From Microbacterium sp. LKL04 (GTDB lineage: Bacteria; Actinomycetota; Actinomycetes; Actinomycetales; Microbacteriaceae): a stretch of 64,000 bases of DNA. Shown one piece after another: positions 21,677 to 34,741 of the stretch (within the stretch, counting starts at the first letter, position 1; the number at the start of each line of letters is the position of its first letter). The translations under genes and the position numbers were made by a program. The stretch is taken from the NCBI RefSeq assembly GCF_900102005.1, contig NZ_LT627736.1, positions 2,232,001-2,296,000 of the forward strand, read 5' to 3'. The notes below the pieces were generated by a model that saw only the letters and a program-made list of their open reading frames with translations, was not told the DNA's origin and did not search any database.

Positions 21677-22084
21677 TCACCCGGTGCGGGGCAGGCTGCG
21701 ACCGAGATCGGATGCCGCGCGCCGGGCGAGGGCGAGGGCGTGGCCGAGCGTCTCGCCCGAGCCGAAGAGGGCGGCCAGGACGAGCGTGCTGCCCTCGACG
21801 CGCACCTGCACGATGTGACCGGCGTCGCTGAAGACGAGCACGGACGAGGCGCCGCCGAGACGGAGCTCTCGCACGGCGGCCTCGCCGAGGGCCTGCAGCG
21901 AGCTCGCGATGCTGGCGAATCGGCCGCCGTTCTGCGCGACGGCGCCGTGCTGCGAGGCGACCTCGAAGCCGTCGTCGGTGAGCACGCTCGCGTAGGTGAG
22001 GGAGGTGCTGTGGGCGGCGAAGGCGCCGAGGACGTCGGTCGCGAGTGCGATGACGTCGGCGTCCTGGTGCAGGGCGGTGCTCAT
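21677..22084 (-). CDS. Roadblock/LC7-domain protein 2
   Basis: 135 aa, one Roadblock/LC7 domain: TYASVLTDDGFEVASQ, then IASSLQALGEAAVRELRLGG and SSVLVFSDAGHIVQVRV. It is diverged from the neighbouring Roadblock protein, so the pair may form a heterodimer. It lies 19 bp downstream of the GTPase gene. Role by family: GAP or scaffold for the adjacent GTPase. Confidence 0.83.
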   Translation of the reverse strand: MSTALHQDADVIALATDVLGAFAAHSTSLTYASVLTDDGFEVASQHGAVAQNGGRFASIASSLQALGEAAVRELRLGGASSVLVFSDAGHIVQVRVEGSTLVLAALFGSGETLGHALALARRAASDLGRSLPRTG

Positions 22085-22103: not shown

Positions 22104-22682
22104 TCAGGCGGCGGTCTCGGAGGCGTCGCTCGTGGCGGACGCGATGATCTCGGCTGCTTCGACGCTCGCGACGAGGGTCAGCAGCAGGGTGCGCATGTGG
22201 TCGGTGCTGCGCGGGTCGGCCGTGAAGACCGGGATGGTGCGATCGGGATGCCACTGCGCCAGCGCGTCGGCGTACGCGCCGAGGTCGGGCGTGGGCGCGA
22301 CGTCGCTGCGGGTGACCCCGATGACGACGGCGCCGCCGGCGACGAGCGCCTCGAACTCACCGAGGTACTCGATGACCTTGGCGATGGGGTCGGGCAGGTC
22401 GTTGTTGACGAGCAGCAGCAGGCCTTTTGCCCGCTCGGCGAGCACCGTCCACATGAAGTCGAACCGCTTCTGGCCGGGGGCGCCGTAGAGGCGCACCTTC
22501 TCGTCGGGTCCGAGCGTGAGCTCGCCGTAGTCCAGGGCGACCGTCGTGGTGTCCTTGTCGGCCTGGGCACGGTCGGTGTTGGCGGCCTCGGTCGAGACGA
22601 CGTCGATCTCGCTCAGGCTGCGGATGGCCGTCGTCTTACCGGCGCCCATCGGCCCGGCGAACAGGATGACGTGTTCCGCCAC
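22104..22682 (-). CDS. Small Ras-like GTPase (CvnD/MglA-type)
   Basis: 192 aa. The P-loop GPMGAGKTT spans 10-18 (Lys16). The G3 region is LYGAPGQKRFDFMW, with Pro-Gly in place of the Ras DxxG Asp, as is usual in bacterial CvnD-type GTPases. The G4-like motif is VTRSDVA. It starts with GTG at 22682 after GGGAG; the longer frame upstream is noncoding. With two Roadblock partners it forms a conservon-like switch that lacks the sensor kinase. It is divergent from the pilin gene across a 405-bp regulatory region, which recalls MglA control of type IV pili in Myxococcus; that link is inference. Confidence 0.85.
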   Translation of the reverse strand: MAEHVILFAGPMGAGKTTAIRSLSEIDVVSTEAANTDRAQADKDTTTVALDYGELTLGPDEKVRLYGAPGQKRFDFMWTVLAERAKGLLLLVNNDLPDPIAKVIEYLGEFEALVAGGAVVIGVTRSDVAPTPDLGAYADALAQWHPDRTIPVFTADPRSTDHMRTLLLTLVASVEAAEIIASATSDASETAA

Positions 22683-22874: not shown

Positions 22875-22901
22875 CTGAGGAAAGGCTGAGCAACGACTGA
22901 G
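22875..22901. promoter_or_regulatory. CTGAG x3 direct-repeat array, 11-bp period
   Basis: CTGAG begins at 22875, 22886 and 22897, exactly one repeat per 11 bp. This is the spacing recognised by OmpR/PhoB-family regulators. It lies just upstream of the likely pilin promoter. A near-identical array occurs at 33863-33899 next to the response-regulator gene. Confidence 0.6.
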
Positions 22902-22934
22902 CGCCCGGCACCCCTTTTCGCCCCTTCGCCTGGG

Positions 22935-22940
22935 CATAGT
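22935..22940 (+). promoter_or_regulatory. Possible -10 (CATAGT) of the pilin operon
   Basis: CATAGT lies 33 nt downstream of the last CTGAG repeat; no strong -35 is visible, which suits an activator-dependent promoter. Confidence 0.3.
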
Positions 22941-23087
22941 GGGATGCGCGGGGGCCCTGCCCTGGGGAGCCCGTGACCGCACTGGGGTGGTCGACTGGGG
23001 AGTCTCCGGGTGAGCGCCACTTCGGCGTGCCCTGCTGTCCGCGTCGCCTCGCGTCCCAACACATCGGACCAGCAAGGAGATCTGCAC

Positions 23088-23489
23088 ATGCGTGCATCGC
23101 TGAAGAACTACATGGCCGCCTGCAACCGTCGCAAGGAGGAGACCGGCGAGTCCGGCTTCTCGCTCATCGAGCTCATCGTCGTCGTCGTGATCCTCGGCAT
23201 CCTCGCCGCGATCGCCGTCCCCGTGTTCACGGGCCTGCAGGCACAGGCTGAGGACAACGCCCGTGCCACCGTCGCCGCGAACGCAGCTACGCAGGTCGCG
23301 TCGAACCTGTCGCAGAACAAGGCTCAGGACCTCGGCCTGAACAACCTTCGCAACGGGACCAAGTACACGATCACGATCCAGCCGACTTCTGGAGCCACGA
23401 TCACGGACTACTGCGTCACGGTCGCCGAGACGGGCAAGGAGTCCAAGCAGTCTGGCCCGTCCTGCACCGCCGCGCCGACCACGCCGTAA
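23088..23489 (+). CDS. pilA: Major type IV pilin (class III signal peptide)
   Basis: 133 aa. A 23-residue leader ends ETGESG, followed by mature FSLIELIVVVVILGILAA: the classic prepilin-peptidase site G|F with Glu at +5 and an N-terminal hydrophobic helix for pilus assembly. Two Cys residues near the C-terminus (DYC...SCT) could close the D-region disulphide. The RBS AAGGAGA is well spaced before the ATG. It is the first gene of the plus-strand pilus operon, as expected for the most abundant subunit. Confidence 0.93.
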   Translation: MRASLKNYMAACNRRKEETGESGFSLIELIVVVVILGILAAIAVPVFTGLQAQAEDNARATVAANAATQVASNLSQNKAQDLGLNNLRNGTKYTITIQPTSGATITDYCVTVAETGKESKQSGPSCTAAPTTP

Positions 23490-23577
23490 GCACCCGCACC
23501 ACCTCGCCGGGTCGGCTGAGCGCGCAGCTCGCCGGCCCGGCATCCCCGTTCCCACCCCGCGACCGAAGGACGACCCG

Positions 23578-24021
23578 ATGTCCCGCGCGCCTGAGCCGAT
23601 CGGCGACGACGACGGTGTGAGCCTCGTCGAGGTCGTCATCGCGATGTTCCTCTTCGCGCTGCTCGCGGTCGCCATCCTCCCCCTCGCCATCCAGGCGCAG
23701 GCCCTGAGCTCGACGAACCGCGACGCCGCGAGTGCGAGCGCGTTCGCCTCGAGCCTGCTCGCCGAGGTGCGCGCCGAGTTCCGCGACACCGACCTGCAGA
23801 CCTGCGCCGAGGTCAGGAACTTCCTCGCCGCGCGCGGCAGCGCGGGCGTCGTGACCGACCCCGCGGGCTCGGGTCAGACGGCCCGCCTCACCGCCGACAG
23901 CACGTGCCCTGCCGCGGGCGTCAGCGTCGCGACCATCCGCGCGAAGGTCTACTCCTCCCCGGCCGCGACGGGCACGCCGACGGCCACGCTCTCGACGCAG
24001 ATCGTGGTGACCGGCCCGTGA
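23578..24021 (+). CDS. Minor prepilin (PilV/GspI-like)
   Basis: 147 aa. A short acidic leader IGDDDG is followed by mature VSLVEVVIAMFLFALLAV, with Glu at +5 and cleavage after G13. Two Cys pairs of the C-terminal body may form a disulphide. RBS GAAGGA. It is translationally coupled to the next prepilin (GTGA overlap). By position and helix type it is probably a PilV/GspI-like minor pilin that helps initiate filament assembly. Confidence 0.85.
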   Translation: MSRAPEPIGDDDGVSLVEVVIAMFLFALLAVAILPLAIQAQALSSTNRDAASASAFASSLLAEVRAEFRDTDLQTCAEVRNFLAARGSAGVVTDPAGSGQTARLTADSTCPAAGVSVATIRAKVYSSPAATGTPTATLSTQIVVTGP

Positions 24022-24647
24022 CCCCCGCCTCTTCCGACGACCAGCCCACGAACGACCAGCCCGGCGACGACGCCGGGCTCACGCTCGTCGAGCTGCTCGT
24101 CTACATGTTCGTCGGGGCACTGTTCCTCGGCATCCTCGGCGCCGTCTTCGTCGGCGCGCTCCGCGCGGACTCCGTCACCCGCGAGCGCGACCTCGCCACG
24201 GGCCAGCTGCAGGCGATCTCGACCTCGCTGTCGACGACGGTCCGCTCCGCCTCCGCCGTGCGCGTCGAGACGAGCGGCGGCACGACCGTCGTCCGCGCCG
24301 CGCTGCCCGGCGACCGCTGCTCGGCATGGGCATTCACGACGCCCGCCGGGGCGGCCACCGGCATCCGCGAGGTCCGCGTGCGCACCTACGCCGCCTTCGC
24401 GACCGGCAGCGCACCCGCACCAGGGGCGTCGTGGGGCGTGCTCGCGCCGCGGGTGCGCCAGGTCGTGAACCCGACGGGAACCGCGCGGCCCTTCGCCGCG
24501 CTCGCGTCGGCGGACGCACCGCTGACCTGGAACATCGCCGTGCCGCGGCTCGACGCCGCCGCATCATCCGCGCCCGCCGCGTCGATCTCGGGATCCGCCG
24601 TGCCGCTGGGCAAGACCGCTGGGGGATCGGGGAAGAAATGCTGGTGA
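24018..24647 (+). CDS. Minor prepilin (PilW/GspJ-like)
   Basis: 209 aa starting with GTG in a GTGA overlap. The leader ends DDAG; mature LTLVELLVYMFVGALFLG has Glu at +5 (cleavage after residue 20). The following domain of about 150 residues is beta-rich. This size and helix fit PilW/GspJ-type minor pilins at the pilus tip complex. It is coupled to the large PilX-like gene immediately downstream. Confidence 0.82.
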   Translation: MTPASSDDQPTNDQPGDDAGLTLVELLVYMFVGALFLGILGAVFVGALRADSVTRERDLATGQLQAISTSLSTTVRSASAVRVETSGGTTVVRAALPGDRCSAWAFTTPAGAATGIREVRVRTYAAFATGSAPAPGASWGVLAPRVRQVVNPTGTARPFAALASADAPLTWNIAVPRLDAAASSAPAASISGSAVPLGKTAGGSGKKCW

Positions 24648-26236
24648 ACGCACGCAGACGCCGCTCGGGGGACGAGGGCTCGACGCTCGTGTCGGTACTC
24701 GTGATCGTGATGGTGCTGGGGCTCCTCGCGGTGACCCTCGCCGGCGCCGTCGTCGCCACGGCGCAGACCACCGCGGGGGTGCGCGGCAGCCTCGACTCGC
24801 AGGCGGCCTCGGATGCCGGCCTCGCTGCGGCCGTGGCCTCGTCGACCGCGACCGGCGCCGACCCGTGCGTCGTGAAGCCGGCATCCACCTCGGCGCCGAC
24901 CTACGCCGTCACCGCCTCGTGCGCGGGCGATGTCGTCACCTTCGTCTCGACGGGCACCGGGTCCGATGGCAGCAGGACCGTGACGAGCGCCAGCTACGAA
25001 CTGAAGAAGACGACGACCGTCGCGCCCGGACTCGGCGCCGACATGGTCTTCTTCGGCGACGCGACCTTCACGAGCGAAGTCCGCTCGCACGAGCTCGACG
25101 AACGCCTGCTGACGATCATGATGCCCCGCGGCACCTTCGTCTGCCAGAACCACGTGCCGGCGAACATCCTCGCCGGCGGCAACGTGAAGACGAACGGCCA
25201 GTGCACGATCGACGGCACCGTCGCCACCGGCGGGTCGATCTCGATGTCGAACGCGAGCGACACCATCAAGGGGAACCTCTACGCGTCGAGCACTGCCACG
25301 GCGGGCATCTCGGGCATGATCGGCGGCGACATCCACGTCGGCGGTCCCATCGACTTCGGGTGGAGCGGCTTCACCTACCCCGGCAACGTGTTCGCCGGCG
25401 GCAACGTCGACATGACGAGCGTGTCGATCGCGGGCAAGCTGACCCTGCCGCGCGCGTCGACCATCAAGCTCGACGGCCACCTGCAGGTGAAATACCCGAC
25501 GTCCGCCCACGCGCGCGTCGCGAAGGGCACCGCCGGCGGCCTGCAGTGGCCGACCTCCACCGTCCCGCCCACCGCACCGACCTTCCAGAGCTGGTTCGAC
25601 TACAGCTATTCCGCATCCCACTGGCCGGGCTTCGCCGTGAAGACCCTCGCGACCTCGGGCGACGGCCCGTGGACCTGCAACCGGTTCAGGAACAACAATC
25701 CGTCGACGGGCAACGCGGCGGGCTGGCGCGAGCTGTCGGCGCTCACGTCGCCGACCGTCGTCGACGCGCGCTCCTGCGGAACCCTCAGCTCCAACAACGG
25801 CTCGAAGCCCGTCGTCACGCTGCAGACCGACATCGCCTTCCTCGCCAACAACTACGACATCACGGCGCTCACGATGAAGGCCGCCACCGGCAAGACCCCG
25901 AAGGTCTGGTGGATCGTCGAGGACCGCATCGCCGACGGCGCGCCGAGCTGCGTGAGCCCCGCGGGCACCGTCAACATCAACACGACCGTCATGGGTACAG
26001 GCATCTCGGCGATGATCTACACGCCGTGCCGCATCAGCATCACCGGCGGCGGCGAATGGCACGGCACCTTCTACGGCGGCGGGCTGAATCACGGTGGCCT
26101 GATGGACTTCTACGGTCGCCCCCTGCTGCTCCCCGGCCAGGGCGGCGGATCGTCGGGTCCCGGCTCGATGCCCGGCGGCGGCACGACCACGGTGAGCCTC
26201 GGCGGGCTGCTCTCCCGGACGGACGGCGCCGGATGA
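24638..26236 (+). CDS. Large PilX/GspK-like prepilin with beta-helix-like body
   Basis: 532 aa, far longer than usual PilX (about 170-200). The N-terminus is RRRRSGDEG followed by STLVSVLVIVMVLGLLAVTL, a prepilin-type helix lacking Glu at +5, as in PilX/GspK tip subunits. Residues about 160-300 contain short, regular Gly/Asn/Asp turns (ILAGGNVKTNG, GTVATGGS, NVFAGGNVDM) resembling polymer-forming bactofilin or beta-helix repeats. Many Cys residues and a Gly-rich tail (PGGGTTTVSLGG) follow. The ATG at 24638 overlaps the previous stop by 10 bp; a GTG at 24644 is possible. It is likely a tip-located adhesin-like pilin; this role is inferred. Confidence 0.75.
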   Translation: MLVNARRRRSGDEGSTLVSVLVIVMVLGLLAVTLAGAVVATAQTTAGVRGSLDSQAASDAGLAAAVASSTATGADPCVVKPASTSAPTYAVTASCAGDVVTFVSTGTGSDGSRTVTSASYELKKTTTVAPGLGADMVFFGDATFTSEVRSHELDERLLTIMMPRGTFVCQNHVPANILAGGNVKTNGQCTIDGTVATGGSISMSNASDTIKGNLYASSTATAGISGMIGGDIHVGGPIDFGWSGFTYPGNVFAGGNVDMTSVSIAGKLTLPRASTIKLDGHLQVKYPTSAHARVAKGTAGGLQWPTSTVPPTAPTFQSWFDYSYSASHWPGFAVKTLATSGDGPWTCNRFRNNNPSTGNAAGWRELSALTSPTVVDARSCGTLSSNNGSKPVVTLQTDIAFLANNYDITALTMKAATGKTPKVWWIVEDRIADGAPSCVSPAGTVNINTTVMGTGISAMIYTPCRISITGGGEWHGTFYGGGLNHGGLMDFYGRPLLLPGQGGGSSGPGSMPGGGTTTVSLGGLLSRTDGAG

Positions 26237-27171
26237 CCGCCCTCCTCGGCCCGGCGACGATCGTCACGCTCGTCGGAGTGATCGCCGGCGGGTTCGGCCT
26301 GATCATCGGCTCGTACCTCAACGTCGTCGCCTACCGGGTACCCGCCGGCATCTCGCTGCTGCGCGAGAGCCGCTGCCCGTCGTGCGACCAGCCGGTCCGC
26401 TGGTACGAGAACGTGCCCGTCCTGTCGTGGCTGCTCCTGCGCGGCCGATGCGGATCGTGCCGCTCCGCGATCGGCGCGCGCTACCCCCTCGTCGAGCTCG
26501 CGACGGGCGCCTCCTTCGCAGCCGTGGCGCTCGTCTGGCTGCTCGCCACGGGGCGGCCGGGCTCCGGCATCCCGCTCCCCGCCGCACCCTCGCTCGACTC
26601 CGTCGGCGCCGCGTTCGCCGCCATCACCGCCGCCGACGGCCTCGCGGGACCCACGGTCGCGCAGGCGCTCGTCCTGGCGGTGTTCCTGTGGTTCGCGGCG
26701 GCGGGCATCGTCCTGACGCTGATCGACCTCGACACCCGCCGCCTGCCGCACGCGATCACGACCCCGGGCATCCTCGTCACCATCGCTCTGCTCGTCGGCG
26801 CCGTCCTGCTCGGCGCCGACGCGTGGGCGCTCGTGCGCGCGGGCATCGGATTCGTCGCGCTGTACCTCTTCTACGGCCTCCTGCGCCTCATCCGCCCCGA
26901 CGGCATGGGCGGCGGCGACGTGCGACTGGCCGCCTATGCGGGGCTTCTGCTCGGCTGGCTCGGGTGGGGCCCGCTCGTGGTCGGCGCGTTCGCCGCGTTC
27001 GTGCTCGGCGGCGTGTACGGCGTCGCTCTCCTGTTCTCTCGGCGGGCGGGTCGCCGCACCGCCATCCCGTTCGGCCCGTGGATCATCCTCGGAGCGTGGG
27101 TCGGCATCGTCGCCGGCGACGCGATCGCCGACGGCTACCTCACACTTCTCGACGGTCGGCTGATGTCATGA
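26233..27171 (+). CDS. pilD: Prepilin peptidase / N-methyltransferase PilD
   Basis: 312 aa, multi-pass. The cytoplasmic N-terminal domain has the two CxxC motifs (CPSCDQPV and CGSCRSAIGA) and SYLNVV. The aspartyl peptidase residues are in LIDLDTRRLPHAIT and GGGDVRLAAY (A24A family). It cleaves class III leaders of the four upstream prepilins and methylates the new N-terminus. ATGA overlap with the preceding gene. Confidence 0.95.
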   Translation: MTALLGPATIVTLVGVIAGGFGLIIGSYLNVVAYRVPAGISLLRESRCPSCDQPVRWYENVPVLSWLLLRGRCGSCRSAIGARYPLVELATGASFAAVALVWLLATGRPGSGIPLPAAPSLDSVGAAFAAITAADGLAGPTVAQALVLAVFLWFAAAGIVLTLIDLDTRRLPHAITTPGILVTIALLVGAVLLGADAWALVRAGIGFVALYLFYGLLRLIRPDGMGGGDVRLAAYAGLLLGWLGWGPLVVGAFAAFVLGGVYGVALLFSRRAGRRTAIPFGPWIILGAWVGIVAGDAIADGYLTLLDGRLMS

Positions 27172-27199
27172 CCCGTCGCCCAGGCAAGGAGGTCCTCTG

Positions 27200-28297
27200 A
27201 TGGCCAAGACACGTGTGGCGCTCGAGATCACCGAAGACAGCGTTCGCGCCGTCGAGGTGACCGACGGGCGCGCTCCCACCCTGCTCGCCGCCGGCGAGGT
27301 GATGCTGCCCCCGGGCGCGGCGAAGGACTCCGAGATCGTCGACCGCGACGTCGTCGTGGGTGCGCTCCGCCGGCTGTGGACGGATGCCGGGATCAAGGGC
27401 CGCAACGTGGTCCTGGGAGTCGGCGGCCGCCGCGTCCTCGTGCGCGAGCACAGCTCGACGCTGCGCGAGACGGCTCTCGTGCGCCAGGCGCTGCCCTTCG
27501 ACGTGCAGGACCGCCTGCCGGTCCCCGTCGACCAGGCGGTGCTCGACTTCATCCCGACGCACGTCGACGACGAGGGCATGCACGGCCTCATGGTGGCCGC
27601 CGTCTCGGAGCAGATGGAGGACCTCGTCTCGGTCCTGGCCGAGGCGGGGCTCACCGCCGACTCGATCGATCTGCTCGCCTTCGGCTACTGCCGTGCGCTC
27701 GCGGGGCTCGCCCCGAAGGGCGTCACCGGCATGCTCATCGGCATCGGCGAGCACACGACCCAGGTCGTGATCGCCACCGACGGCGTGCCGCAGTTCGCCC
27801 GCGCGATCCCCATCGACGTGCCGCGCGGCGAAGCCCGCGTCACCGAGATCGAGGCCGCCCCGACCGAGCTCGAGACCCTCACCGGGTTCCGGACGGGCGG
27901 GGTCGAGGAGTCCGCCGACGGCGCCATCCGTTCGCGCGGCGACCTGCGCCGTGCCCGGACGGCCGTCGCGACGCCGCCCGCGGGCGTGCCCGAGGCGCCG
28001 GCTGCGGATGCCATGTCGGCCGACTTGCAGGACGTCCTGATCGATCTCGTCACCCGCCTGCGCGGAACGGTCTCGTTCTACCGGGATCGAACGGATGCCG
28101 CGCCCGTCGCCGCGACCTTCATCACGGGCCTGCACACCGACCACCCGCGCCTGCAGGCCGCCCTCGCGCAGGTCGCCGGCACCGAGGTCCGCCGGATCAC
28201 CGGGGCCGACCTGGTCCGGGTGAAGAACGGGCTGCACCCCGCCGTCGACGAGCGCATCGCTCCCACCGTCGCCCTGCTCCTCGGAGGAACCAAATGA
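27200..28297 (+). CDS. pilM: Type IV pilus assembly protein PilM
   Basis: 365 aa, actin-like ATPase fold (RVALEITEDSVRAVEV, GMLIGIGEHTTQVVI). PilM binds the PilN cytoplasmic tail and forms the inner-membrane platform ring with PilN and PilO. Strong RBS AAGGAGGT 7 nt before the ATG. The central region (about 215-275) has an Ala/Pro-rich insertion. ATGA overlap with pilN. Confidence 0.93.
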   Translation: MAKTRVALEITEDSVRAVEVTDGRAPTLLAAGEVMLPPGAAKDSEIVDRDVVVGALRRLWTDAGIKGRNVVLGVGGRRVLVREHSSTLRETALVRQALPFDVQDRLPVPVDQAVLDFIPTHVDDEGMHGLMVAAVSEQMEDLVSVLAEAGLTADSIDLLAFGYCRALAGLAPKGVTGMLIGIGEHTTQVVIATDGVPQFARAIPIDVPRGEARVTEIEAAPTELETLTGFRTGGVEESADGAIRSRGDLRRARTAVATPPAGVPEAPAADAMSADLQDVLIDLVTRLRGTVSFYRDRTDAAPVAATFITGLHTDHPRLQAALAQVAGTEVRRITGADLVRVKNGLHPAVDERIAPTVALLLGGTK

Positions 28298-28950
28298 GCA
28301 CGCTCGTGCGCACCCCCGCCTTCAAGCCGGGGTCCCTCCCCCGCGCCAACCTGCTGCCGCTGTCCGAGACGCGTCGCCGTGACGTCCGGCGCATCGGGCG
28401 GTCGTGGGTCACCATCGGACTCGGCTCGCTCGTGGTCGCACTCCTGCTCATCGGCGGCGCGTTCGCACTGAACGTGCAAGCGGCCCTCCGGCTCGCCGCC
28501 GCGAACGCCGACACCGACCGCGTCATCGCCGACATCGCCGAGCTCGCGCCGGTGAGCCAGGCGGTGGCGCAGCGGACCGAACTGTCGGGGCTCGTCACGC
28601 AGGCCATGGCCGGCGACATCTCCTGGCGGAAGGCCGTGGGAACGATCGCCGACGCGCTGCCCTCCGGCGTCACGGTCACCGGCTACGCGCTGGCCGCGGG
28701 CCAGGTGCCCGGTGACACCGCACCGGACGAGACCGTCGGCGCGGCCGGCTCGGTCACCGTCGTCAGCGACGAGCCCATCAGCCTGGTCGAGGCGACGCGG
28801 GCGCTCCGCGGCGTCGACGCGATCCTCGAGGTGGGCGTGCAGACGCTCGCCGAGGAGGAGGGCCTCTACACCTACACCGTCGAGGTGCAGCTCGACCAGA
28901 CCATCTACTCGGGCGATTTCGCACCCGAGCAGGCGACCGAGACGGAGTGA
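28294..28950 (+). CDS. pilN: Type IV pilus assembly protein PilN
   Basis: 218 aa. The N-terminal cytoplasmic tail contains RANLLPLSETRRRD (the PilN motif INLLP is seen here as ANLLP), then one transmembrane helix (about 40-63), a coiled coil and a C-terminal ferredoxin-like domain. It connects PilM to PilO. It begins in an ATGA overlap with pilM. Confidence 0.9.
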   Translation: MSTLVRTPAFKPGSLPRANLLPLSETRRRDVRRIGRSWVTIGLGSLVVALLLIGGAFALNVQAALRLAAANADTDRVIADIAELAPVSQAVAQRTELSGLVTQAMAGDISWRKAVGTIADALPSGVTVTGYALAAGQVPGDTAPDETVGAAGSVTVVSDEPISLVEATRALRGVDAILEVGVQTLAEEEGLYTYTVEVQLDQTIYSGDFAPEQATETE

Positions 28951-28952
28951 CG

Positions 28953-29633
28953 ATGACGAAGCAGCTGGTCAACCTCATCGGGGCCGTCGCGTCCCTCGGC
29001 ATCCTGCTCGCCGGTGCCCTCCTGTTCGCACTGCCGCAGTTCACGGGCGCGCAGCGGATCACCGCGGACGCCGCGTCCGTCGAGCAGTCCAACGCGACCC
29101 AGCAGGCCGTGCTCGACGGCCTCGCCGCTCAGGCCGCCGATATGACCGAGCTCGACGCGGAGGTCGCGGAACTGCGCCGGGTGGTCCCGGCATCCGTCCG
29201 CGCCGACGACGTCGTCCAGCTCGCCGCCGACGCGGCCTCGGAGCACGACGGCCGCGTCGTGGCCGTCACGGTCGGCGAGACGACGGCCTTCGCGGCCCGC
29301 ACCGTCGATGCGGCCGCGGGTGCCGCCGACGGCACCACCCCGGCCGCCACCGAGACGACGGCCGAGACGACGACGGAGACGTCGGGATCGGACGAGGGAG
29401 CGGATGCCGCGGCTCCCGCCGACCCCGCTGCCGCCCCGGCCGGCGAGGGGCCGCAGCAGGTGAGCATCACCGTCAGCATCACGGCACCCGACAGCACGAA
29501 GGCGACCGCCGTGATCGACGAACTGCGCAAGGGACCGCGCGCGGTCGCCGTCACGAACGCGGGAATCACGACCGACGACGACGGCACCGTCACCGCCGAG
29601 GTGACGCTGCTCGCCTTCTACGTCGCCGGCTGA
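28953..29633 (+). CDS. pilO: Type IV pilus assembly protein PilO
   Basis: 226 aa. Single N-terminal transmembrane helix (LVNLIGAVASLGILLAGALL), coiled coil (about 40-80), Ala/Thr/Glu-rich linker (about 110-160, e.g. TETTAETTTETSG) and a C-terminal ferredoxin-like domain. It dimerises with PilN around the pilus motor. The ATG at 28953 has GGAG at 5-nt spacing; a GTG at 28947 overlapping the pilN stop is the alternative. Last gene of the plus-strand pilus operon. Confidence 0.88.
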   Translation: MTKQLVNLIGAVASLGILLAGALLFALPQFTGAQRITADAASVEQSNATQQAVLDGLAAQAADMTELDAEVAELRRVVPASVRADDVVQLAADAASEHDGRVVAVTVGETTAFAARTVDAAAGAADGTTPAATETTAETTTETSGSDEGADAAAPADPAAAPAGEGPQQVSITVSITAPDSTKATAVIDELRKGPRAVAVTNAGITTDDDGTVTAEVTLLAFYVAG

Positions 29634-29645
29634 CCACCCACGGCA

Positions 29646-29690
29646 CACGCGAAAAGCCCCGGACCTCCAGGGTCCGGGGCTTTTCGCGTG
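29646..29690. terminator. Perfect bidirectional terminator between pilO and pilC
   Basis: A 20-bp perfect stem (29646-29665 against 29671-29690) with a 5-nt loop. The AAAA/TTTT tracts inside the stem would give U-rich ends in both directions. It separates the convergent pilO and pilC. Confidence 0.9.
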
Positions 29691-29694
29691 GGTC

Positions 29695-30924
29695 TCAGCT
29701 GCCGAGCTGCTCGTACATCGTGAACATCGGCATGTAGAGGGCGACCACCATGCCGCCGATGAGGACACCCAGCAGGGTGATCATGATCGGCTCGATCATG
29801 CTGGTCAGCTGCTCGGACGCAGCCTTGACCTCGGTCTCGTAGAAGTCCGCGATCGACTCGAGCATGTCGGGCAGCGTGCCCGACTCCTCACCGACCGACA
29901 CCATCTGCGACACCATGGCCGGGAACACCTCGGCCTTCGCGAGGGGCGTCGAGAACGACCTGCCGTGGCGCACCGACTCGCGCACCTCGCCGAGGGCGTC
30001 CTCGATGGCCTTGTTGTCGGATGCCTTGCCGACGAGCTCGAGCGCCTGGAGGAGGGGCACGCCCGCCTTGAGCATCATCGAGAGGTTGCGGGCGAAGCGG
30101 GCCACGGCGATCTTCGTGATGAACGCGCCGAAGATCGGCATCTTGAGCCGGAACGGGTCGACGGCGCCGCGGAAGCGGTCGGCGTCCTTCACGCGCTGGT
30201 ACCAGACCACCCCGCCCACGACCGCGACGACGAGCAGCGGCCCGATCCAGATCATGTTGCGCGACAGGGTCACGAGGATCTGCGTCGGGATGGGCAGCTC
30301 CCCGCCCATGCTGGCGAACATCTTCTCGAAGATCGGCACGACGAAGGTGATCATCGCGAGCACGCCGAGGATGGCGATGACGAGCACGACGATCGGGTAC
30401 GTCATCGCCGACTTGATCTTCTGCTGCAGGTCGACGTCGGAGCGGTACGACTTCGCGACGGCGACGAGGGACTCGCCGAGGAAACCGCCGGTCTCACCGA
30501 CGTTCACGAGGCTCACCATGAGCGGCGGGAACGCCTTGGGCTGCGCCGCCATGGCGGCCGAGAACGACTTGCCGGCGGCGATGTCGGTCTGCACCGCGAC
30601 GAGGGCGGACGCCAGCTTCTTGCTCTCGGTCTGCTCGGAGATGACGGCGAGCGCGCGCATGAGCGGCAGGCCGGCATTGATCAGCCCGGAGAGCTGCTTC
30701 GCGAAGATGGCGAGGTCCTCGACCTTGACGCCCTTCTCGAACCCGGGGATCGAGATCTCCTGGTGCAGGCCGGTCGTCGACATCGGCGCGACCTGCAGCG
30801 GCGCGAGGCCCTGCGCGCGCAGCTTGGAGACGACGGCGCTCTCGCTGGCCGCCTCGACGGTGCCTTTGACGACGGGGCCGCCGGTCGTGCCGACGGCTCG
30901 GTAGGTGTACTCCTGAAGAGGCAT
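29695..30924 (-). CDS. pilC: Type IV pilus platform protein PilC (GspF family)
   Basis: 409 aa. Two GspF domains (about 65-190 and 270-395) with three transmembrane helices; conserved FAKQLSGLINAGLPLM and FARNLSMMLKAGVPLL, each opening a repeat. PilC anchors the ATPases PilB and PilT and turns their motion into pilin extraction. The ATG at 30924 sits 1 nt after the pilT stop. Last gene of pilB-pilT-pilC. Confidence 0.94.
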   Translation of the reverse strand: MPLQEYTYRAVGTTGGPVVKGTVEAASESAVVSKLRAQGLAPLQVAPMSTTGLHQEISIPGFEKGVKVEDLAIFAKQLSGLINAGLPLMRALAVISEQTESKKLASALVAVQTDIAAGKSFSAAMAAQPKAFPPLMVSLVNVGETGGFLGESLVAVAKSYRSDVDLQQKIKSAMTYPIVVLVIAILGVLAMITFVVPIFEKMFASMGGELPIPTQILVTLSRNMIWIGPLLVVAVVGGVVWYQRVKDADRFRGAVDPFRLKMPIFGAFITKIAVARFARNLSMMLKAGVPLLQALELVGKASDNKAIEDALGEVRESVRHGRSFSTPLAKAEVFPAMVSQMVSVGEESGTLPDMLESIADFYETEVKAASEQLTSMIEPIMITLLGVLIGGMVVALYMPMFTMYEQLGS

Positions 30925-30925
30925 A

Positions 30926-32095
30926 TCAGCGCGTCCACGCATCCATCGGGTCGGCCCACGCGTCGGCGTGCACGCCGGCCGGCTGCACACGCACGCCGTC
31001 GAGGGCCTTCGGGTCGGTCAGGTAGTGCTTGGCGAGGGCGAGGTTCAGTTCACCGCGCTCGACCAGCAGCCGCAGCGACTGGTCGAGCGTGTGCATGCCG
31101 TGCCCTGCCCCGGCCTGCATCGCGTTGTAGAGCTGCGCGATCTGGTTCTCGCGGATGAGGTTCGCGACGGCGGGCGTCGAGACGAGCACCTCGGTCGCGA
31201 TCACCCGGCCGCCCCCGTGAGCGCGCGGCAGCAGGGTCTGGCTGACGACGCCCTGCAGCGCGTCGCCGAGCTGCGTACGGACCTGGTTCTGCTGGTGCGC
31301 GGGGAAGGCGTCGACGATGCGGTTGATGCTCTTGGCCGCGCCCTGCGTGTGCAGGGTGGAGAGGACGAGGTGGCCGGTCTCGGCGGCGGTGAGCGCGGTC
31401 GAGATCGATTCGGGGTCGCGGAGCTCGCCGATGAGGATGACGTCGGGATCCTGACGCAGGACGCGGCGCAGCGCCTCGGCGAACGAGCTCGTGTCGGCGC
31501 CGACCTCGCGCTGGTGGATGAGCGACTGGCGCGACGTGTGGACGAACTCGATCGGGTCCTCGACCGTGACGACGTGGTCCTGCTTGGTCCGGTTGATGAG
31601 GTCGATCATCGCGGTGAGCGTCGTCGACTTGCCGGAGCCCGTCGGGCCGGTGACGAGCACGAGACCGCGCGGGCGCAGGGCGAGCTCGCCTGCCACCTCG
31701 GGCGCTCCGAGCTCGGCGAGTGTGAAGGCACGGCTCGCGATGAGTCGGAAGGCCGCGGCGACCTGGCCGAGCTGGCGGAACACGTTGACGCGGAACCGGC
31801 CGACGCCGGCGACCGTGTACGAGAGGTCGACGTCACCGGTCGCGTGGAAGGACTCCCGGTGCGATGGGGTCATGATCGACACGAGCGCGTCGAGCAGCGT
31901 CGGTCCCGGGATCGGCGCCTCGAAGCCCGTGACCGGGATGAGGTGTCCGTCGTGACGGTGGAGGGTCACGGCATCCGCCGAGAAGTGGATGTCGGAGGAC
32001 CCCATTCCCGCCGCGGTACCGAGGATGCCGTCGAGCAGAGCGGTCGCGCCGGCGTCGGACGACACCGCCCGGGCTCGCAGTTCAGACCGTGACAC
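30926..32095 (-). CDS. pilT: Pilus retraction ATPase PilT
   Basis: 389 aa. Walker A is GPTGSGKSTT; the Asp box VEDPIEF, Walker B LIGELRDPE and His box STLHTQGAAKSINR follow, all typical of PilT/VirB11-like ATPases. The usual AIRNLIRE helix appears as VANLIRENQ. It starts with GTG at 32095, overlapping pilB by 14 bp. Its presence predicts that the pilus can retract, giving twitching or DNA uptake. Confidence 0.93.
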   Translation of the reverse strand: MSRSELRARAVSSDAGATALLDGILGTAAGMGSSDIHFSADAVTLHRHDGHLIPVTGFEAPIPGPTLLDALVSIMTPSHRESFHATGDVDLSYTVAGVGRFRVNVFRQLGQVAAAFRLIASRAFTLAELGAPEVAGELALRPRGLVLVTGPTGSGKSTTLTAMIDLINRTKQDHVVTVEDPIEFVHTSRQSLIHQREVGADTSSFAEALRRVLRQDPDVILIGELRDPESISTALTAAETGHLVLSTLHTQGAAKSINRIVDAFPAHQQNQVRTQLGDALQGVVSQTLLPRAHGGGRVIATEVLVSTPAVANLIRENQIAQLYNAMQAGAGHGMHTLDQSLRLLVERGELNLALAKHYLTDPKALDGVRVQPAGVHADAWADPMDAWTR

Positions 32096-33743
32096 GCAGG
32101 ACCTCCTCGATCGTCGTCGCCCCCAGCACGACCTTCGACCAGCCGTCCTCGCGGAGGCTCGTCATCCCGTCGCGGAGCGCCGCCGCGCGGACGTCGCTGC
32201 CGGTCGCGTGCGAGACCACGAGCTGTTCGATCTCGTCGGACATCGCCATGACCTCGTGCAGGCCGACGCGGCCGCGGTAGCCCGTGCCGGAGCATTCGGG
32301 ACATCCGCCCTTGCGGAACAGCTCGGGCGGATCGCTCGGATCGAACGGGAAGCCGAGGCGCTCGAGGACGGCGGGATCCTCGCGGTACGGCTGGCGGCAC
32401 GCCGTGCACAGGCGCCGAGCGAGGCGCTGGGCGACGACCGCCGACAGTGCTGTCGCCACGAGGAAGGGCTCGGCGCCGATCTCGGTGAGACGCGCGACGG
32501 CGCCGGGGGCGTCGTTGGTGTGCAGCGTCGAGAGCACGAGGTGACCGGTGAGGGCCGCCTCGATCGAGATGATCGCCGTCTCGGTGTCACGGATCTCGCC
32601 GACGAGGACGATGTCGGGGTCGGAGCGGAGGATGCTGCGCAGCGCCGATTGGAAGGTGAGGCCCGCCTTCGCGTTGACCTGCACCTGATTGATCCCGGGG
32701 ATCCGATACTCGACCGGGTCCTCGACGGTGATGACGTTGACGGCGGGGTTCGCGACCTCGCGGAGCGCCGTGTAGAGCGTCGTCGACTTGCCGGAGCCGG
32801 TGGGGCCGGTCACGAGCACCAGTCCGTGCGGGCGGGTGATCGCCGAGCGGAACCGCCCCAGGTTCCCCCGCCCCATCTGCAGGTCGCGCAAGGACAGGCT
32901 CACGCCGGTGTTGTCGAGGATGCGCATGACGATCTTCTCGCCCCACACGGTGGGCAGCGTCGCCACGCGCAGGTCGATCTTGCGACCGACGTGGGTCACC
33001 GAGAGCCGGCCGTCCTGGGGCTTGCGGCGCTCGGCGATGTCGATCGAGGCCATGATCTTCAGGCGCGAGACGACACCGTCCTGGATCGCGCGGTCGGCGC
33101 GCTGCATCTCGTGCAGCACCCCGTCGATGCGGTAGCGGACGGCGAGGTGGGTCTCGCCGGGTTCGACGTGGATGTCGCTCGCGCGGTCGTCGATCGCCTG
33201 CGTGATGAGGAGGTTGACGAAGCGGACGATGGGCGCGTCGCTGTCGGACTGGTCGAGCTCCTCGACCGAGACCTCCGCCGCGGCGGACTCCTCGAGGGCG
33301 GCCGACAGGTCGGAGATCTCGTCGTCCGAGCGGACGTAGCGCTGAAAAGCGCTCTCGAGCGCATCCAGGGCGACGACGACAGGCGAGATGTGCAGGTCGG
33401 TGATCGTCGCGACATCGTCGAGGGCGATGATGTCGGACGGGTCCGCCATCGCGAGGACGAGCCGGTCACCGGTGCGCTCGACCGGCAGCACGCGGTGCTT
33501 GCGGCACATGCCGCCGGGCAGCAGCGCGACGACCGCTGCGTCGAGCTGGCGTCCCGAGAGGTCCATGTAGCGGTGCCCGGTGTGGAGGGCCACCGCCTCG
33601 GCCAGCTGGTTCGGCGAGACGACGCCCCGCGCCAGCAGCTGCTGCATCAGCTCGTCCGTCTCGCCGTATTCGTCGACGAGCGTCGCGACCTCGCCGGCGA
33701 GCACGGCCCCGGTCAACACCAGTGTCTGTGCGATCCCCCGCAT
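32082..33743 (-). CDS. pilB: Pilus extension ATPase PilB (GspE family)
   Basis: 553 aa. The N-terminal MshEN-like domain (about 20-150) is followed by the ATPase core: Walker A GPTGSGKST, Asp box VEDPVEYRI, Walker B LVGEIRDTET, and the tetracysteine zinc site CTACRQ...CPECSGTG. The ATG at 33743 follows a GGGGGTG-type RBS; the longer frame to 33848 would run into the regulatory region. First gene of the minus-strand operon, divergent from the response-regulator gene. A TACTCT on the minus strand (33824-33819) could be its -10. Confidence 0.94.
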   Translation of the reverse strand: MRGIAQTLVLTGAVLAGEVATLVDEYGETDELMQQLLARGVVSPNQLAEAVALHTGHRYMDLSGRQLDAAVVALLPGGMCRKHRVLPVERTGDRLVLAMADPSDIIALDDVATITDLHISPVVVALDALESAFQRYVRSDDEISDLSAALEESAAAEVSVEELDQSDSDAPIVRFVNLLITQAIDDRASDIHVEPGETHLAVRYRIDGVLHEMQRADRAIQDGVVSRLKIMASIDIAERRKPQDGRLSVTHVGRKIDLRVATLPTVWGEKIVMRILDNTGVSLSLRDLQMGRGNLGRFRSAITRPHGLVLVTGPTGSGKSTTLYTALREVANPAVNVITVEDPVEYRIPGINQVQVNAKAGLTFQSALRSILRSDPDIVLVGEIRDTETAIISIEAALTGHLVLSTLHTNDAPGAVARLTEIGAEPFLVATALSAVVAQRLARRLCTACRQPYREDPAVLERLGFPFDPSDPPELFRKGGCPECSGTGYRGRVGLHEVMAMSDEIEQLVVSHATGSDVRAAALRDGMTSLREDGWSKVVLGATTIEEVLRVTV

Positions 33744-33862
33744 CCTGCACCCCCTGTATCGGCGGCCGGACTCAGGTCGGGGCGCGCACGTGCCCACCCA
33801 GTCCGAGCGCGCCTCGCCAGAGTAGACAGCAGGGCTGCAGCGACACACGGCGCCGACCGCAA

Positions 33863-33899
33863 CTGAGGCAAAGCTGAGGTAGTGCTGGGGCGCGCTGAG
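33863..33899. promoter_or_regulatory. CTGAG direct-repeat array between pilB and the regulator gene
   Basis: CTGAG at 33863 and 33874, CTGGG at 33885 and CTGAG at 33895; the first three keep an 11-bp period. The first 16 bp (CTGAGGCAAAGCTGAG) match the array at 22875 (CTGAGGAAAGGCTGAG) at 14 positions. It lies upstream of both divergent genes. Confidence 0.6.
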
Positions 33900-33925
33900 T
33901 TGCGCCGGAAGATTAATGCATTTTA

Positions 33926-34741
33926 ATGAAAGCGGGGGAAGCGACAGTCGTGGACCCCATCGGACTACACATGACTCTTCTCGAACACCCCGCTCCCGCG
34001 CGAACCCTGGGACCGGTCACACGCGTGGCCGTCCTCGTCGAGGACGCCGGCACGGCTCGCGACCGCCTCTCCACCACGCTGCAGCAGCACGGCTTCCAGG
34101 TGCATTCGTTCTCCGACGGCTTCGCGGCGGTCGAGGCCGTCGACCGCCTGCAGCCCGACCTCGTCACCGTCGACACCACCCTTGCGGGGATCGACGGGTT
34201 CGAAGTGGTGCGCCGCATCCGCTCGTTCCACGCCGGATCGGTCGTCATCCTCTCGGACATGACCGAGGAGACGGCCGCCGTCGAGGCCTTCCGCAGTGGC
34301 GCGGACGACTACATCCTGCGCCCGTGGCGCCCCTTCGAGCTGCGCGCCCGGCTCGATGCGATCCTGCGTCGTACGCTCGGCGCCGCCGACGCCCTGCCGC
34401 CGACCGAGTCGGACTGGCTCGTCGTCGACGGACTGCGGCTGCACCCGGCATCCCGTCGGGCGGAGCTCGCCAACCGCCGCATCGACCTCACTCGGTCGGA
34501 GTTCGATCTGCTGCTGGCCCTCGTCAGGAACCCCGACGTCGTCCTCGAGAAGTCCTGGATCGTGCTGCTGCTGCGTCGCCAGAACGGTGGCAACGGCGAT
34601 CACGTGAACGCGCACGACCTGCACGCCATCGAGGTGCACGTCATGAATCTGCGGCGCAAGCTCGGCGGCACGGCCCGGCGATGCCGCTGGATCGAGACGG
34701 TCCGCGGGATCGGCTACCGCTTCGCGCCGGCGAAGCTCTGA
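33926..34741 (+). CDS. Orphan OmpR-family response regulator with atypical receiver
   Basis: 271 aa. Receiver at about 35-150 with phospho-acceptor D83 (VTVDTTL), S110 in ILSDMTEE, and R132 (DDYILRPW) where almost all receivers have Lys. The C-terminal winged helix (about 165-268) has the OmpR pattern LTRSEFDLLLALVRN and ETVRGIGYRF. No kinase is adjacent. The start at 33926 has GGAAGA and an AT-rich ATTAAT (33912-33917) upstream; ATG 33971 is an alternative. It is divergent from pilB with a CTGAG array in the promoter, so a pilus regulator is the best guess. Confidence 0.85.
   Translation: MKAGEATVVDPIGLHMTLLEHPAPARTLGPVTRVAVLVEDAGTARDRLSTTLQQHGFQVHSFSDGFAAVEAVDRLQPDLVTVDTTLAGIDGFEVVRRIRSFHAGSVVILSDMTEETAAVEAFRSGADDYILRPWRPFELRARLDAILRRTLGAADALPPTESDWLVVDGLRLHPASRRAELANRRIDLTRSEFDLLLALVRNPDVVLEKSWIVLLLRRQNGGNGDHVNAHDLHAIEVHVMNLRRKLGGTARRCRWIETVRGIGYRFAPAKL

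Follow-up and report, generated by a model that had tools for sequence, protein, structure and literature searches.

Which protein reads the two repeat arrays that flank the pilus locus of Microbacterium sp. LKL04, and which genes do these arrays control? The locus lies in a stretch of 64,000 nucleotides (contig NZ_LT627736.1, positions 2,232,001 to 2,296,000, forward strand), referred to below as the window. The original prediction, made from the letters of the window, was that the arrays are binding sites of an OmpR-family regulator encoded beside the second of them, and that the pilin operon, the GTPase operon, the pilB operon and the regulator gene form one autoregulated regulon. The present analysis makes it very likely that the arrays are operators of that regulator, the response regulator P0001 (33926..34741, + strand), and that through them it controls its own promoter and the pilin promoter.

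Repeat arrays in the window

Array 1 (22875..22901, + strand) comprises three CTGAG units in 11-bp steps, starting at 22875, 22886 and 22897, and lies between the GTPase operon and the pilA-like prepilin gene (23088..23489, + strand; N_methyl domain), which is the first gene 3' of it. Array 2 (33863..33899, + strand) is made up of CTGAG, CTGAG and CTGGG at 11 bp (33863, 33874, 33885) and of a further CTGAG 10 bp on (33895). The coordinates given in the original prediction are right, with the one correction that the step from 33885 to 33895 is 10 bp and not 11. Both arrays are intergenic, between divergent genes, and the + strand holds all the units, array 1 reading toward pilA and array 2 toward the regulator gene. 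Direct repeats in register at about 11 bp, as expected of an OmpR-type operator, are thus present in both arrays, and the same spacing forms a peak in the relatives described below.

CTGAG pairs alone are at chance level, both in the window, where six pairs with up to one mismatch were observed against 4.70 expected, and in the whole genome, where five exact pairs were found against six for the reversed motif. As pairs are not enriched, the case rests on triples, conservation and promoter phasing. A genome scan for repeat triples had been named as a check of the prediction; with the pattern YTGAGN6YTGAGN6YTGAG and at most one mismatch, it returned two matches in the genome of 2,922,023 bases, exactly the two arrays, and none for the reversed motif.

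The family assignment of the regulator adjoining array 2 is borne out by its domains, Response_reg (PF00072, E 3.4e-21) followed by Trans_reg_C (PF00486, E 7.6e-15), the plan of OmpR/PhoB-family proteins. Its true start is probably the ATG at 33971, since the frame is not open further upstream in the close relative L006.

Arrays in relatives and at pilin promoters

L006, the locus of M. oleivorans Wellendorf, is close to the window genome (PilC 99% identical); its array 1 is identical, and in array 2 the CTGAG/CTGGG cores are kept while the spacer bases have changed. In L007, L008 and L009, with PilC proteins 75–76% identical, a three-unit array within one mismatch stands before pilA, and looser TGAG units are found between pilB and the regulator gene.

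Across the genus, P0001 has matches at E 1e-30 or better in 107 of 247 Microbacterium genomes. The 70 regulator genes used here (E 8.1e-47 or better) were taken with a cut set by eye, which dropped 37 genomes; at most 10 candidates per genome were scored, and true members, at least the two of G144 and G011 (70–71% identical to the regulator of G012), were overlooked. The subfamily is seldom met beyond Microbacterium, with matches at E 1e-45 in 4 of 199 genomes of the family, own genome included. In the 800 bp upstream of each regulator gene, counting pair distances from 6 to 35 bp, the same strand held 84 TGAG pairs spaced by 11 bp and 39 spaced by 22 bp, no other spacing exceeding 10 pairs, and the opposite strand held three pairs at 11 bp. 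At least one same-strand 11-bp pair was present in 48 of the 70 promoters, as against 3 of 70 on the other strand; upstream of eight weaker-scoring regulators no such pair was found.

The arrays at pilA also follow the regulator. A pilC gene was found in 70 of the 247 genomes; regulator and pilC occur together in 44, the regulator only in 26, pilC only in 25 and neither in 152 (p 1e-13, with the weak pilC match of G079 omitted, kinship ignored, and G144 and G011 counted as regulator-less). The comparison across the genus covered 67 pil loci, those of the own genome and G075 being left out of it, and 61 pilA upstream stretches were read, from which G140 was dropped (a wrong stretch, the pilA match lying at the locus edge). 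Same-strand YTGAGN6YTGAG pairs were present in 11 of 39 stretches from genomes with the regulator and in none of 21 from genomes without it (p 0.005); on either strand the figures were 16 of 39 and 1 of 21 (p 0.002). When the better-matching pil loci only were taken, the counts were 11/37 against 0/16 on the same strand (p 0.011) and 16/37 against 1/16 on either strand (p 0.007). The 39/21 grouping includes the post hoc move of G144 and G011 to the regulator group; in the original groups, the same-strand pair occurred in 10/37 against 1/23 (p 0.026) and the either-strand pair in 15/37 against 2/23 (p 0.007). With both strands considered, 0.2% of shuffled promoters contained a pair. In G177 and G094 the regulator gene is more than 100 kb from pilA, yet the pilA array is present.

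Triples with at most one mismatch were found anywhere in the pil loci in 6 of 42 cases with the regulator (five near pilA, one upstream of the regulator gene) and in none of 25 without it, and the reversed motif in none of 67; this criterion is too strict to see most sites. A matrix was derived from 127 units of regulator promoters, leaving out G000 (own genome), G236, G183 and G075. Among all pair sites of the window, both strands, it ranks 33863 first and 22875 second; array 2 takes ranks 1 and 4, and array 1 ranks 2 and 3. Scores above the 99% level of shuffled sequences were reached by 11 of 40 pilA regions with the regulator, the wrong stretch of G140 included, and by none of 21 without it.

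Several observations weigh against this reading. No same-strand pair is present in 22 of the 70 regulator promoters, nor in 28 of the 39 pilA promoters of regulator-bearing genomes. The opposite strand of the pilA regions exceeds the matrix threshold in 5 of 40. G144 was regrouped after its array had been seen, its regulator being then found independently next to the gene g4, and the relatedness of genomes is uncorrected. In L010 (strain SN12, G075) two loose units stand before pilA, and none were seen at pilB or at the regulator gene. The conservation in relatives, on which the original prediction was to be judged, is therefore to be described as prevailing but incomplete. Candidate operators are nevertheless kept at both the regulator and the pilA promoters in relatives, as expected of an autoregulated pilin regulon, and this conservation gives good support to the predicted OmpR-type operator, autoregulation and pilin control.

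Promoter geometry and competing explanations

A TANNNT hexamer follows the last unit by exactly 15 nt, counted from start to start, in 40 of the 48 regulator promoters that carry an array; many of the promoters in this and the following counts come from related genomes and so are not independent. The other eight, the window among them, have no TANNNT there in the stretch examined. Within the clade of the window, the position 27 nt beyond the last 11-bp unit is taken by ATTAAT (window, L006), GATCCT (G220, G215), GATACT (G058), AATACT (G206) and CCTACT (G145); as -10 elements some of these are poor, and there are further candidates close by. In the window, ATTAAT (33912..33917, + strand), 27 nt after the last unit in 11-bp register, is a possible -10 element of the regulator gene.

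At pilA, a TTGAC element follows the third unit by 15, 15 and 16 nt in G094, G177 and G144, and in 7 of the 11 promoters with a same-strand pair it follows the second of two units by 26 nt. As 26 nt equals 15 nt plus one 11-bp step, the TTGAC slot is the same in 10 of the 11; it is absent from the remaining promoter, that of G236. In the window, CATAGT (22935..22940, + strand) follows the third unit by 38 nt, counted from start to start, and is a candidate pilA -10 element by analogy with the pilA promoters of relatives, and the -35 slot (22912-22917) reads CCCTTT, which is weak. In L006 the distance from the third unit to CATAGT is one base less.

This geometry suggests how P0001 might act. 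In the regulator promoter the -35 region is taken up by the array, and binding there would result in autoregulation; at pilA, the array is placed just upstream of the -35 slot, and bound regulator would most likely activate pilin transcription. The opposite sign of control, with P0001 binding the arrays but repressing pilA and itself, seems unlikely. It would agree with the overlap between the units and the -35 region in regulator promoters, and autoregulation by repression is common. However, the pilA units stop short of the TTGAC/-35 slot on its upstream side and leave it free, and the regulator promoters have no clear -35 element of their own between the array and TANNNT; an uncovered slot and a missing -35 element are typical of activator sites.

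A quite unlikely alternative is that the arrays are read by another direct-repeat binder, such as a second OmpR-family regulator, a SARP or a BldC-like protein, and that the regulator gene is just one of its targets. SARP and BldC proteins bind direct repeats, the motif could be read by any protein of this kind, and relatives keep arrays at other genes, namely SipW-type operons and pilB. Against this stands the behaviour of the arrays in three gene neighbourhoods. The regulator gene is found beside pilB (window, L006-L009, G236), beside dnaK/grpE and an MFS gene (G220, G215, G058, G206, G145), or with coaE, the unknown gene g4 and a histidine kinase gene, and among the loci looked at arrays are present at regulator genes in all three. 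Among 19 coaE/g4-slot stretches, a pair occurs in L315 (G144, full regulator) only, and L316 (G011), also with a full regulator, has none; in most of the 19 the slot is empty or holds a receiver match alone or a distant second regulator. The array thus goes with the regulator gene and not with the location. Where no full-length relative of the regulator was found, the arrays are absent at pilA apart from the single either-strand case given above. In addition, the EVH..NLR.K stretch of the DNA-binding domain, which may be read as the recognition helix, is nearly constant over 37 compared proteins. From this we infer that P0001 itself binds the arrays.

Exact triples occur at 32 places in 24 of the 247 genomes (reversed motif, six): 12 upstream of the regulator gene, three upstream of pilA (own genome included), one upstream of a SipW-type gene and 16 elsewhere. 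Chance or functionless simple tandem duplication, to which the chance level of pairs and the 16 places elsewhere, most of them resembling tandem duplications, might point, is hardly credible as the origin of the arrays in view of the spacing peak, the phasing to promoter elements and the conservation despite diverged spacers.

With P0001 as the reader of the arrays, pilA and the regulator gene itself appear to be its best-supported targets, with pilB a possible one. The predicted single regulon of four units is too wide: conservation in relatives supports it for the pilin and regulator genes, and the GTPase operon is unsupported as a target. Since each array is flanked by a divergent pair of genes, geometry places the GTPase and pilB operons next to the arrays. 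No GTPase match was found in the fetched loci L007-L009, the rest of these genomes not being searched, though the pilA array persists there; across the genus, a match was found in 1 of 67 pil loci, which were the only parts of the genomes where the operon was sought. In four of the 67 loci (G094, G016, G177, G218) a pair oriented toward pilB precedes its inferred start by 50–53 bp; two opposite-strand pilA matches (G016, G218) are such pilB-pointing pairs.

Two or three YTGAG units were also seen upstream of homologues of SipW-dependent-type secreted proteins in G145, G215 and G220 (L361, L362, L363), genomes with no pilC match. The SipW-type gene is followed by a signal peptidase gene in G145 and by a similar-looking reading frame in G215. 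The G145 secreted protein was found in three of six genomes searched, while G058, G206 and the own genome gave no match. The 14 regulator-bearing genomes without a pilC match contain 33 one-mismatch triples against 14 for the reversed motif, a background at which single triples in such genomes mean little. A pair upstream of a dnaB-like gene was noticed in G220 and G215 (L336, L357).

Candidate sensor, known systems and neighbouring genes

The receiver domain of P0001 has the Glu-Asp acidic pair, Asp83 and Ser110, with Arg132 where Lys is usual. The position of the phosphoacceptor Asp is taken by Ser in L007, Cys in L008 and Gly in L009, all pil-linked relatives. A gene for a PAS histidine kinase is located in the own genome at G000:C1:664985-666643, 1.6 Mb from the window. 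Together with a g4 homologue it occupies G000:C1:664985-667821, between an S1-protein gene and coaE-uvrB, and no regulator gene is present in this slot. The own kinase is 47% identical to the kinase of the coaE-type loci, and the own g4 homologue 36% identical to g4 (L248:6676-7863 and homologues); for the own g4, a membrane protein, the GGDEF match is weak (E 0.018) and does not reach the Pfam cut-off. Kinase relatives are present in all five genomes of L006-L010; g4 homologues, found in 138 of 247 genomes, outnumber the 70 regulators by far.

In many relatives the genes for the kinase and g4 are next to one for a regulator of this subfamily. The tree, however, separates the regulator clade of the window from the kinase-linked clade, so the PAS kinase as the sensor of P0001 is a guess. 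Relocation of the regulator gene into the pilus locus, away from a place beside coaE, g4 and the kinase gene, was considered first. The tree puts the protein of the window in a separate clade, and the three dnaK-linked members checked (G220, G058, G145) encode a second regulator at g4, so that paralogy, or a transfer followed by loss of the other copy, would explain the findings equally well. The g4 slots of L306, L317, L319, L320, L321 and L326 hold a receiver match alone, with no room for a DNA-binding domain, and may be read as receiver-only remnants or single-domain regulators.

Direct-repeat operators of this period are known from related regulators. Mycobacterial PhoP binds as a tandem dimer to 7-bp direct repeats with a 4-bp spacer, three or four repeats being bound tighter (PMC4832192). 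Direct repeats of 11-bp period are common to PhoP sites, the pho box of E. coli PhoB (PMC4832192) and the present arrays, and P0001 has the same domain plan; unlike there, the unit is YTGAG plus 6 bp rather than CTGTCAT or the PhoP motif, the target is a pilin gene, and the binding is predicted. The sites of E. coli ArcA mostly consist of two to five direct-repeat elements, chiefly 11 bp centre-to-centre (PMC3798270), as here; the motif and regulon differ, and only two strong sites are seen in the present genome. The arrays would work like both; what differs is the unit sequence and the pilin target.

MtrA of actinobacteria, with the same domain plan, gives the best solved-structure match of P0001 (2gwr_A, E 2.5e-28). 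P0001 is not assigned to it, scoring 129.7 bits against a cut-off of 300 for the NCBIfam MtrA equivalog. PilS/PilR of Gram-negative bacteria exert two-component control of pilA, as is proposed here; PilR is an NtrC-type protein acting with sigma-54, unlike P0001, which is of OmpR type. An OmpR-family regulator that is active unphosphorylated and autoregulated is Cupriavidus AgrR, which binds an inverted repeat, unlike P0001 arrays; P0001 keeps Asp83, and only the L007-L009 relatives have no Asp (PMC7380067). For the actinobacterium Micrococcus luteus, the excerpted source describes a response regulator affecting transformability and mentions no pilin operator (PMC8467076).

According to a review, it is the Tad/Flp kind of type IV pili that has been studied in Actinobacteria (PMC6916266), which leaves the control of a PilA/PilB/PilC/PilT/PilM-type system there as open ground. 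Among the matches listed, in titles and abstract beginnings of open-licence papers, no pilA regulator is described for Microbacterium or another actinobacterium with this kind of pilus. For a non-pathogenic genus, the analysis puts forward a candidate regulator and a candidate sensor, places the predicted operators with single-base precision and describes the promoter geometry. It also suggests that the regulator gene has retained its operator code through changes of neighbourhood, and that three relatives have apparently lost the phosphorylation site. As a tentative extension, a regulator subfamily with one fixed operator code (YTGAGN6) might control surface fibres generally, type IVa-like pilin or, in pilus-less species, SipW-type secreted fibres. 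In one clade the regulator gene would lie inside its pilus locus, apart from its likely kinase, and members without the phosphorylation site would represent a phosphorylation-independent, self-amplifying pilus switch.

Further genes were assigned as follows. The pilB-like ATPase gene (32082..33764, - strand; T2SSE and MshEN domains), whose start codon is uncertain, is divergent from the regulator gene; the MshEN domain binds c-di-GMP in other proteins. It is accompanied by a pilT-like ATPase gene (30926..32095, - strand), named from sequence and co-location, by the pilC-like gene (29695..30924, - strand), which served as the query for finding pil loci, and by a pilM-like gene (27200..28297, + strand; PilM_2). 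The GTPase-like gene (22104..22682, - strand), divergent from pilA, owes its name to the original prediction and has limited domain evidence, an ATP_bind_1 match alone; its operon includes a Roadblock/LC7-like gene (21677..22084, - strand; 23.2 bits, cut-off 23).

In G073, G094, G177 and G218 two pilC copies lie about 10.6 kb apart, and the pil locus seems to be partly duplicated in tandem. In coaE-type loci (G012, G193, G177 and others), a short reading frame with a recurring R.G.VAIVGAIAT-like stretch lies between the array and the regulator gene. A palindrome, approximately ATGAGAG-N2..4-CTCTCAT, was observed between the -35-like and -10-like elements of the pilA promoters of L183, L186, L187, L195 and L199, and also between pilB and the regulator gene in L007-L009. 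It occurs in genomes with and without the regulator and looks like a second, separate candidate operator.

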